Assembly (NCBI GenBank): GCA_030430845.1
Contig: JAUIKE010000011.1
Location: 1-64,000, forward strand
DNA: 64,000 bases
DNA from: Bacteroidia bacterium
GTDB lineage: Bacteria; Bacteroidota; Bacteroidia; Chitinophagales; Saprospiraceae
Direction: 5' to 3'
The notes under the pieces were generated by a model that saw only the letters and a list, made by a program, of their open reading frames with translations, was not told the DNA's origin and did not search any database. Position 1 is the first letter of the stretch. Each line of letters starts with the position of its first letter. A program made the position numbers and the translations under genes. This document shows positions 3,475 to 60,654 of the stretch, one piece after another.

Positions 3475-3599
3475 AGACATGTCATGTCTAGACATGACAT
3501 GTCCTACCAAACAGAGGTTAAACATTTGTTAATCAATCCTATAAATGACATGACATGTCCTTCCTGGGCAGATATGTCATATCTAAACATGACATGTCT
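3475..3599. repeat. Cluster of GACATGTCATGTC palindromic repeats
   Basis: Perfect 28-bp palindrome GACATGTCATGTCTAGACATGACATGTC (3476-3503), half copy TGACATGACATGTCC (3546-3560), degenerate copy AGATATGTCATATCTAAACATGACATGTC (3570-3598). Confidence 0.85.
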
Positions 3600-3603
3600 T
3601 TGG

Positions 3604-4290
3604 TCACCTCCTCACCACTTCATCCATAAAATCAAATACCACTAGCAAACTCTCTCCCATATAGTGAATTCCTTCCTGCAAACGCTTCCAGTGAAGATCC
3701 ATCAACTCCTTGTCTCGCTGCATGAGCTTATACACCGTCCGGCAAATCTTCACAAAACGCGGAAAATCATTGGTTACCGGCAAATTGGGGACGCCCATTT
3801 TTTCCAAAAAAGAATAAAATCTTTGATAACTATATAAGGTGTATGCCTCCGGGAATCGAAAAGCCAGATACAGAGAGATCATCTGATAACCATCATCGTG
3901 ATAATGATTGTTCTCTATCCTGTGAGGGTACTTATCACGGTATTCCTGCAACAACTGATTACAATAGAAGACAAAACGGTCGACCCGCCCTTCGATACTC
4001 TTTTCTTCATTAAACAGATCCGCGAACATTTGGAGGAAGTAATCTTCCGACAAAGCTATAAACTTAAGCATAACATCCTTGGGCTCATAGGACTCCCGGC
4101 GCCACATTCGCCTGGTTTGGCTGTTTTGCAAACTTTGATCGTACATCTGCGCCAGGTCCCTTGCTTCGAGATTCCAGTTTTCCTGAAAGATGCGTTGAGA
4201 TTCCCAGATGTATAGATTGCGTTCTGCTTGAGGAGATTGTAAATATCCTTTATATTCTTCGAATGCCTGGTTTAGTAGCTTTACCTGCAT
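3604..4290 (-). CDS. Stand-alone protein resembling the N-terminal region of McrB-like AAA ATPases
   Basis: 'YIWESQRIFQENWNLEARDLAQMYDQSL', 'EGRVDRFVFYCNQLL', 'HYHDDGYQMISLYLAFRFPEAYTLYSYQRFYSFLEKMG' recall McrB-type N-terminal regions; no AAA domain. Confidence 0.4.
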   Translation of the reverse strand: MQVKLLNQAFEEYKGYLQSPQAERNLYIWESQRIFQENWNLEARDLAQMYDQSLQNSQTRRMWRRESYEPKDVMLKFIALSEDYFLQMFADLFNEEKSIEGRVDRFVFYCNQLLQEYRDKYPHRIENNHYHDDGYQMISLYLAFRFPEAYTLYSYQRFYSFLEKMGVPNLPVTNDFPRFVKICRTVYKLMQRDKELMDLHWKRLQEGIHYMGESLLVVFDFMDEVVRR

Positions 4291-20214: not shown

Positions 20215-20637
20215 CTAAACTTCCCACTCCTTGCTCTTCCGATAAACCGTTCCATTAAATGAAGCGACCAATTCCTCATCCTGATTCCTTACTTTGACAG
20301 TATATACCCCAAGTTTATGGTTTTTATGATCTTCCTCTGCCGTGGCGACTATGACGTCCCCCGCTTTCAAAGCAGTGGTATGTTTAATGGATGCATGTAC
20401 CGATACGGCATGTTGTCCCCGGGAGTTAGAGGCAAAGGCAAAGGCACTATCTGCCAATGAAAAGGTAATGCCTCCATGAGCAATGTAAAAGCCATTGAGC
20501 ATTTCCTTACGAATGGACATTTGAAGCCGGCAAAAACCCGGGCCAATGTCTAATAGTTCTACCCCCAACCAGCGGCTAAAGGCATCATGCTCCAGCATTT
20601 TTTGAGTAATTTGGTACGCTTTACTGTTTTTATCCAT
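20215..20637 (-). CDS. PaaI family thioesterase (hotdog fold)
   Basis: 'LGVELLDIGPGFCRLQMSIRKEMLNGFYIAHGGITFSLADSAFAFASNSRG'. Start MDKNSK; the longer start lies in a palindrome. Confidence 0.92.
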   Translation of the reverse strand: MDKNSKAYQITQKMLEHDAFSRWLGVELLDIGPGFCRLQMSIRKEMLNGFYIAHGGITFSLADSAFAFASNSRGQHAVSVHASIKHTTALKAGDVIVATAEEDHKNHKLGVYTVKVRNQDEELVASFNGTVYRKSKEWEV

Positions 20638-20683
20638 ATCTATTCCAATTTTGTATGGCTTAAAGTCGTTGTTAATCGTGGAA

Positions 20684-20733
20684 TGCCTGTGGGAATAATT
20701 TTTGACGGCCGTCAAAAATTATTCCCACAGGCA
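20684..20733. promoter_or_regulatory. Perfect 50-bp palindrome in the divergent PaaI / ECF sigma intergenic region
   Basis: TGCCTGTGGGAATAATTTTTGACGG|CCGTCAAAAATTATTCCCACAGGCA. Confidence 0.85.
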
Positions 20734-20788
20734 AATATGTCCTATATTCGATAAAAAATTTCATTATATTGTATTAATTTTACGGCAA

Positions 20789-21325
20789 GTGACGGAGAGA
20801 GAGCTCATAAATGGCTGTTTGCGCGAAAATAAAAAGTGCCAGATGGAACTTTTTAAGCGCTATTCCGGAAAGATGATGGCCATTTGTATGCGCTACGGAC
20901 GTCACCGGATGGAGGCTGAAGATTTGCTTCAGGATGCCTTCATCAAGGTGTTCGATAATTTGTCGAAATTTAAATACAAAGGATCACTCGAAGGTTGGAT
21001 CCGCCGGATAGTGATCAATACGGCCCTTAAGGCCTACGGTAAAAAGAGCTTCCAAAACGAACAGATCGGCATAGAAGTACACAATGATACGCCCGTCGAT
21101 CCTTCCGTTTTGTCTTCCCTGAATGAAGCTGCATTACTTCAATTGGTGTCTCGTCTTCCCGATGGTTACCGCATCGTGTTCAACCTCTATGCTATTGAAG
21201 GTTATTCCCATAAGGAAATAGCCGATTTAATGGGTATTCAGGAGAGTACTTCGCGTTCTCAACTGGTGAAAGCCCGGAAAATGTTGCAAACTCAGATTGA
21301 GCAGTTAAAAAAGATAGCCGTATGA
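20789..21325 (+). CDS. ECF-type RNA polymerase sigma factor (GTG start proposed)
   Basis: 'VTERELINGCLRENKKCQMELFKRYSGKMMAICMRYGRHRMEAEDLLQDAFIKVFDNL...YSHKEIADLMGIQESTSRSQLVKARKML'. Confidence 0.9.
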   Translation: MTERELINGCLRENKKCQMELFKRYSGKMMAICMRYGRHRMEAEDLLQDAFIKVFDNLSKFKYKGSLEGWIRRIVINTALKAYGKKSFQNEQIGIEVHNDTPVDPSVLSSLNEAALLQLVSRLPDGYRIVFNLYAIEGYSHKEIADLMGIQESTSRSQLVKARKMLQTQIEQLKKIAV

Positions 21326-51229: not shown

Positions 51230-51871
51230 ATGCATATTCTTTTAGTAGACGACCACCAGATCGTTATTGACGGCTTAAAAACCTTGCTGGACGGTGAAAC
51301 AGATATAGAACAAATTTATGAAGCTCAAAATGGGGAAGCCACTTTGGACCTGGTAAAGAGTACTTCTGTTGACCTGATCCTACTAGACATAAACCTGCCT
51401 GATAAAAGCGGCTTCGAAATCTGTAAAGCCATAAAAAGCAAACAAGCTGAGATCAAGATCATTGCCCTGACCATGCACGATAATGCCGGTTATATATCCA
51501 GAATGATCAAATCCGGGGTGGATGGTTACATTCTTAAAAATACAGGCAAAGAGGAATTATTACAGGCTATCCGCACCGTGATGAAAGGCGATCGCTATTT
51601 CAGCGCAGAAGTGACGGACGCCCTCGTGTCGGGCACCCCCAAATCTCGCGAGCCCCGCACTGGCGACTTCATTCAAAAACTCACTCGCCGGGAAAAAGAA
51701 GTATTGCAACTCATCGTGGAAGAAATGACTACTGATGAAATTGCAGCCAAATTATTCATCTCAGCAACCACCGTAATTTCTCATCGCAAAAGTCTGCTCA
51801 GAAAGCTCAATGCCAAGAATACGGCCGGGCTGGTAAAGGCTGCTTTTGAGTTTGGATTGTTGGAATCTTAA
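51230..51871 (+). CDS. NarL/LuxR-family response regulator
   Basis: 'MHILLVDDHQIVIDGLKTLL', 'LILLDINLPDKSG', 'LTRREKEVLQLIVEEMTTDEIAAKLFISATTVISHRKSLLRKL'. Confidence 0.96.
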   Translation: MHILLVDDHQIVIDGLKTLLDGETDIEQIYEAQNGEATLDLVKSTSVDLILLDINLPDKSGFEICKAIKSKQAEIKIIALTMHDNAGYISRMIKSGVDGYILKNTGKEELLQAIRTVMKGDRYFSAEVTDALVSGTPKSREPRTGDFIQKLTRREKEVLQLIVEEMTTDEIAAKLFISATTVISHRKSLLRKLNAKNTAGLVKAAFEFGLLES

Positions 51872-51927
51872 ATTAAATAGGACTGTTACATCCGCCTGAG
51901 GCGGATGTAACAGTCCTATTTAATTTA
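51869..51927. terminator. Bidirectional terminator with 28-bp stem
   Basis: TAAATTAAATAGGACTGTTACATCCGCC-TGA-GGCGGATGTAACAGTCCTATTTAATTTA. Confidence 0.9.
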
Positions 51928-55469: not shown

Positions 55470-55867
55470 TAGCGGCGGCAGGACTTGAACCTACGACCTT
55501 CGGGTTATGCTTCTCACTACAGCTTTCGCTGCCTCAATTGCAAGAATAAGAGTTTGTGAGCTGGACTTTCTCTTCACCCTATTGAATAACTTCAACTTAG
55601 GTGTCTGCCATTAAGTCTCTACACCTTCTCTGTGCGCCGAAGCTCTTTAATGAGCAAAGGTGCATAAAGCTTGGCTCGGGATTACCACACTACAGGCTTC
55701 CCCGAATTTGACAGATGTTCACCAAAGCATTTCTGCTAAGGCAGCCCAAGCGATAACAAAGATAATTTGGCTTCCCAAATACTGATTTTAAGTAGTGAAC
55801 TTCAAATCATAATGTCTTTGCTTCGCAATTCTTGAGCCCGACGAGCTACCAACTGCTCCACGCCGCG
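55470..55867 (-). tRNA. Initiator tRNA-fMet (CAU) interrupted by a group I intron; exons 55835-55867 and 55470-55509
   Basis: Spliced: CGCGGCGTGGAGCAGTTGGTAGCTCGTCGGGCT|CATAACCCGAAGGTCGTAGGTTCAAGTCCTGCCGCCGCTA = 73 nt, full cloverleaf; GGG/CCC anticodon-stem pairs, A11:U24, unpaired 1:72. Confidence 0.95.
55510..55834 (-). ncRNA. Self-splicing group I intron (IC3-like), 325 nt, no internal ORF
   Basis: Core blocks CAAATTCGGGGAAGCCTG...GGTAATCCCGAGCCAAGC and AAGGTGTAGAGACTTAATGGCAGACACCTAAG match the conserved core of bacterial tRNA group I introns; preceding exon ends in U, intron ends in G. Confidence 0.92.
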
Positions 55868-60601: not shown

Positions 60602-60654
60602 TAAAAAAGAGGCTGTCTCATCCGCCTGAGGCGGATGAGACAGCCTCTTTTTTA
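60602..60654. terminator. Terminator with 25-bp stem
   Basis: TAAAAAAGAGGCTGTCTCATCCGCC-TGA-GGCGGATGAGACAGCCTCTTTTTTA. Confidence 0.9.

Follow-up and report, generated by a model that had tools for sequence, protein, structure and literature searches.

A perfect 50-bp palindrome between divergent thioesterase and ECF sigma factor genes in a Saprospiraceae genome rich in intergenic palindromes

Bacterial genomes usually contain few long perfect palindromes. Template switching creates and homogenises perfect stems, and its products, including those of quasipalindrome correction, have been described in E. coli, yeast and eukaryotic RNA genes as perfect inverted repeats that are unrelated in sequence between places and whose arms are kept identical (PMC7202029, PMC8604942, PMC8794818). 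REP and BIME elements are abundant short intergenic palindromes, and REPs are multi-copy, conserved in sequence and marked by a tag such as GTAG (PMC3733652, PMC2817692). Bidirectional intrinsic terminators combine a GC-rich centre and AT-rich arms in a long stem. A survey of perfect inverted repeats in 118,019 genomes, which tallied arms of at least 10 bp, found perfect arms, short spacers and enrichment outside coding DNA (PMC13155455). Our literature search found no paper on palindromes in the intergenic DNA of Saprospiraceae.

The DNA analysed here is a 64-kb stretch (the window) of a 9.1-Mb Saprospiraceae genome. The initial annotation had reported a perfect 50-bp palindrome with 25-bp arms and no spacer between divergent starts at 20637 and 20789; its sequence and coordinates proved exact, and both starts were right. 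The features of the locus are as follows.

20684-20733, no strand: perfect palindrome with 25-bp arms and zero spacer; RNA folding of 20670-20830 is far more stable than that of shuffles (z-score -5.4)
20703-20714, no strand: central core TGACGG/CCGTCA, found exactly also in the long palindromes C120, C203 and C315
20215-20637, minus strand: PaaI-like thioesterase (4HBT, PF03061), ATG at 20637, divergent neighbour
20789-21325, plus strand: ECF sigma factor (Sigma70_r2/r4_2), GTG start, divergent neighbour
20775-20782, plus strand: TAATTTTA, a candidate -7 box of Bacteroidota type for the ECF gene, outside the palindrome; conserved in the sister genome G001 as TAACTTTA

The divergent gap measures 151 bp, and in it the two halves of the palindrome, TGCCTGTGGGAATAATTTTTGACGG and CCGTCAAAAATTATTCCCACAGGCA, precede both genes: they occupy the stretch 56-105 bp upstream of the ECF GTG and 47-96 bp upstream of the PaaI ATG. 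As had been noted, both automatic open reading frames open with the same false peptide, MTAVKNYSHR, which comes from TTG codons within the palindrome. The GTG at 20789 is followed by N-terminal coding sequence and preceded by upstream DNA that are conserved in G001, and the spacing of the -7 box to this GTG suggests that the ECF message is leaderless. No full TAnnTTTG promoter box was found inside the palindrome, and boxes with one mismatch were as frequent there as in the region at large. An ECF-type GGAAT..CGTC promoter within the palindrome was rejected by inspection, as its spacing of 12 bases is too short; known ECF promoters have longer spacing. No known RNA family matched at the site. 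An origin from phage or plasmid was dropped because the core 24-mer had no exact match in viral contigs and the region 20640-20800 had no match in plasmids. Elsewhere in the window, a full-length group I intron match (RF00028, 68 bits) was detected at 55543-55765 on the minus strand, and no tRNA genes were found in the 64 kb.

Compared with the described systems, the palindromes of this genome resemble the products of template switching in their perfection, in their unrelated sequences and in arms kept identical, and differ in that the genome-wide load within one bacterial species is high relative to relatives. They share with REP and BIME elements their abundance in intergenic DNA, and some families here form tandem hairpins. 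Unlike a REP, the focal palindrome is a single copy across the 9.1-Mb genome, longer and fully perfect, and shares with other sites its TGACGG/CCGTCA core alone. The GC-rich centre, AT-rich arms and long stem of bidirectional terminators are common in convergent-gap palindromes here, whereas the focal palindrome lies in a divergent gap, with a T-tract before its core and an A-tract after it.

Arms of 25 bp are practically impossible by chance in 64 kb, the expectation for a given arm being about 64000 x 4^-25. Perfect inverted repeats of at least 12 bp numbered 26 in the real window and 0 in first-order shuffles. The focal arm had no second copy at up to three mismatches in the window, and none in shuffles. 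The same 64 kb held 22 further inverted-repeat pairs, their arms 15-30 bp long, so that the focal palindrome is not exceptional in its own genome. Because the window thus contained 23 pairs with arms of at least 15 bp, the analysis was extended to 1.42 Mb of the genome, window included, and to 0.36 Mb of G001.

Perfect inverted repeats whose arms reach 16 bp or more, with a spacer of up to 4, numbered 186 in the 1.42 Mb (131/Mb) versus 16 in the 0.36 Mb of G001 (45/Mb); the 0.76 Mb surrounding ECF homologues, drawn from 80 other records, contained 4. When arms of 20 bp or longer were required, the density was 85/Mb here and 17/Mb in G001, and 2 were found in the 0.76 Mb around ECF homologues; the survey cited above counted from 10 bp upwards. 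Around the ECF homologues, which are a non-random sample of their genomes, the density of perfect inverted repeats was 0-8/Mb. Scaling the 1.42-Mb sample to the whole genome gives about 1,200 palindromes with arms of 16 bp or longer. Since 77 perfect palindromes in the sample matched or exceeded the focal arm length of 25 bp (zero spacer in 16, a divergent gap in 12), the focal palindrome is ordinary for its own genome in this respect as well.

The 98 singleton palindromes were assigned to gene contexts, approximately, from our own longest-ORF calls. Convergent gaps held 29 (15.6 kb; 1.86/kb), codirectional gaps 44 (79.1 kb; 0.56/kb) and divergent gaps 20 (40.2 kb; 0.50/kb), while contig edges accounted for 3 and the 1278 kb of coding DNA for only 2. 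Across the whole set the five central pairs were GC-rich and the outer arms AT-rich. Convergent-gap singletons were mostly A-rich in the 5' arm, a bias that those in divergent gaps lacked. Loss of the hairpin nuclease SbcCD was considered as a cause of the load and rejected: sbcD is apparently split over contigs C339 and C318, but these overlap, the sbcD frame is open throughout and an SbcC-like frame is adjacent. SbcCD is therefore present, and its loss is not the cause.

The central core recurs at other palindromes. The exact sequence TGACGG/CCGTCA (TGACGGCCGTCA) occurs seven times in the genome, not at all in G001 and nine times in 59 other genomes. Four of the seven sites centre zero-spacer palindromes with arms of 16-25 bp, versus arms of no more than 8 at the nine sites elsewhere, and the palindromes C179 and C208 bear a one-base variant. 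Among zero-spacer palindromes, ACGG abutted the centre in 5 versus 0.87 expected, a number reached in 0 of 2000 shuffles. Centres related to the focal core also occur among hairpins of a GGTTGWGTRAAAACC-armed family. The part of the focal arm outside the six-base core showed no significant likeness to the arms of this family (p 0.14-0.98).

The behaviour of arms over time was read from HP2, the largest repeated hairpin family (core AAAAAC-nnn-GTTTTT). Its 20 distinct copies vary at 19 of 25 arm positions, yet 497 of 500 cells were paired; 108 had changed on both sides, and 3 were unpaired versus 156 expected for independent arms. In a direct scan, able to detect moderately imperfect copies, 9 copies had at least one mismatch and 46 were perfect. 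Several further repeats were seen. Long hairpins at 51869-51927 and 60602-60654 of the window have a common ATCCGCCTgAGGCGGAT centre and differing, perfectly paired outer arms. A ACATGACATGTC-type palindromic repeat cluster occupies 3476-3640, and this motif is also palindromic at other places in the genome (L165, L189 and L220). At L126 (17175-17400 and 19050-19240; G000 contig C12), composite intergenic repeats carry three hairpins in a row; the arms of the middle hairpin covary almost perfectly between copies, and the outer ends AGGGGTTGTGTAAAAA...TTTTTACACAACCCC resemble terminal inverted repeats.

To examine conservation, ECF homologues were taken from 80 named contigs and from 30 genome loci. 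The decisive comparison was with G001, the only genome of the same genus compared, in which the ECF sigma factor is 92% identical, the PaaI-like gene is likewise divergent and the flanks align on both sides. The focal palindrome was absent from the syntenic G001 gap. That gap (L086) instead holds a longer stretch with different inverted-repeat ends, from G001's own GTAGAAAG repeat family; thus, the PaaI/ECF gap carries unrelated palindromic DNA in both species. A single-arm ancestral state was not found in G001, whose gap is too diverged for either arm to be recognised. Aligned blocks of the focal contig and G001 were about 66-83% identical, and almost none of the contig's palindromes had a counterpart there. 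Upstream of ECF homologues, no corresponding palindrome was found at 35 named and 30 genome loci, about half of the latter being reverse-oriented and scanned on the wrong side. By sequence comparison, the focal palindrome is most likely recent and lineage-specific.

These comparisons bear on the earlier suggestion of a symmetric operator or promoter element for the PaaI/ECF pair, which found no support. A DNA-binding dimer or tetramer, such as an ECF/PaaI regulator, that bound the palindrome and repressed both promoters would suit its full symmetry and its place upstream of both starts in a divergent gap. However, the palindrome is not conserved within the genus, comparable palindromes occur genome-wide, divergent gaps are not enriched in them, and mismatch-free symmetry of 25 bp per arm exceeds what binding needs. 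The proposed search for other copies or half-sites, made genome-wide, returned only two matches to the 20-base half at up to three mismatches, which is the control level. We regard such an operator as improbable, and a conserved operator or 5' leader was rejected because the palindrome is absent from the G001 gap and was not seen upstream of the other homologues scanned. It is also unlikely that the palindrome acts as a transcription barrier, its RNA hairpin or DNA cruciform blocking divergent or antisense transcripts between the two genes. The hairpin is predicted to be very stable, a cruciform is possible, and convergent-gap palindromes here, with A-rich 5' arms and T-rich 3' arms, look like bidirectional terminators; no gene, however, ends at the focal palindrome. 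The annotation's view that this is not an ordinary terminator was borne out. Along each strand T5 comes first, then the GC core and then A5, opposite to the layout of an intrinsic terminator, with AAAAATTATTCCC after the core and AATATGTCC (plus strand) and TTCCACGATT (minus strand) outside the palindrome. With this order and no T-run past either end, intrinsic termination is not expected. An assembly fold-back could be suspected in a draft of 396 contigs in which two contig ends overlap, but is very improbable, since the arm is just 25 bp, the flanks are not inverted and the orthologous G001 flanks continue on both sides; moreover, palindromes in this genome avoid coding DNA, which artefacts would not.

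Two origins remain to be weighed, and the comparison between them rests on two genomes, which do not separate them. The focal palindrome might be a minimal, diverged copy of a dispersed MITE- or REP-like element, inserted whole, from a hairpin family centred on CCTGAC..GTCAGG or TGACGG/CCGTCA. There were 27 GGTTGWGTRAAAACCTRACGG-family arms at up to three mismatches versus 0 in the control, composite tandem-hairpin repeats exist in the genome, and several other palindromes of the contig (29649, 61647 and 74436) resemble clean whole-unit insertions relative to G001, which fits small mobile hairpins better than template switching. Against this, the focal arm is unlike the family arms outside its six-base core, no target-site duplication is visible at the focal site, and over all palindromes the duplication signal was absent at 5 bp or more, with a weak excess at 3 bp. 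An excess of Y1 transposases (IS200/REP-associated) was sought and rejected, the five in the genome being ordinary among relatives. We consider a mobile origin possible but doubtful. The palindrome is one of a genome-wide intergenic population, and our preferred explanation, to which we give about an even chance, is template switching by fold-back at a short nucleus rich in GC. This process is consistent with nuclei that are shared, outer arms that are unrelated and arms that change in concert; the focal arms are perfect and yet differ from the arms of palindromes built on the same nucleus. A.C mismatches were overall as frequent as G.T. The concerted arms come from the HP2 family, the focal palindrome having no second copy. 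Selection for RNA pairing could likewise hold arms in step, as the excess of G.T (15) over A.C (8) on the sense strand in codirectional cases might indicate.

Under template switching, the palindrome would have begun as a short self-complementary nucleus, here TGACGG/CCGTCA. At replication, the nascent strand would fold back on this nucleus and be copied against itself, as in quasipalindrome correction. Such copying would yield the second arm in a single event and thereafter hold both arms to the same sequence. We propose that its position, upstream of the core promoters of both genes, is why the palindrome is tolerated. We infer, rather than observe, both that copying by fold-back took place and that the palindrome has no specific regulatory role.

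As a single promoter element, the palindrome is of little weight; the genome-wide excess is the interesting part. Palindrome density is many times that of the sampled relatives, the palindromes are intergenic, and in at least one family the arms evolve in concert. We tentatively suggest that this lineage has an unusually active process that makes and perfects long intergenic palindromes, with about a thousand in each genome and their two arms changing together, of which the focal palindrome would be one product, and that the cause may be a trait of replication or repair other than SbcCD loss. If confirmed, this would offer a natural system in which to ask whether template switching creates and maintains bacterial hairpins.
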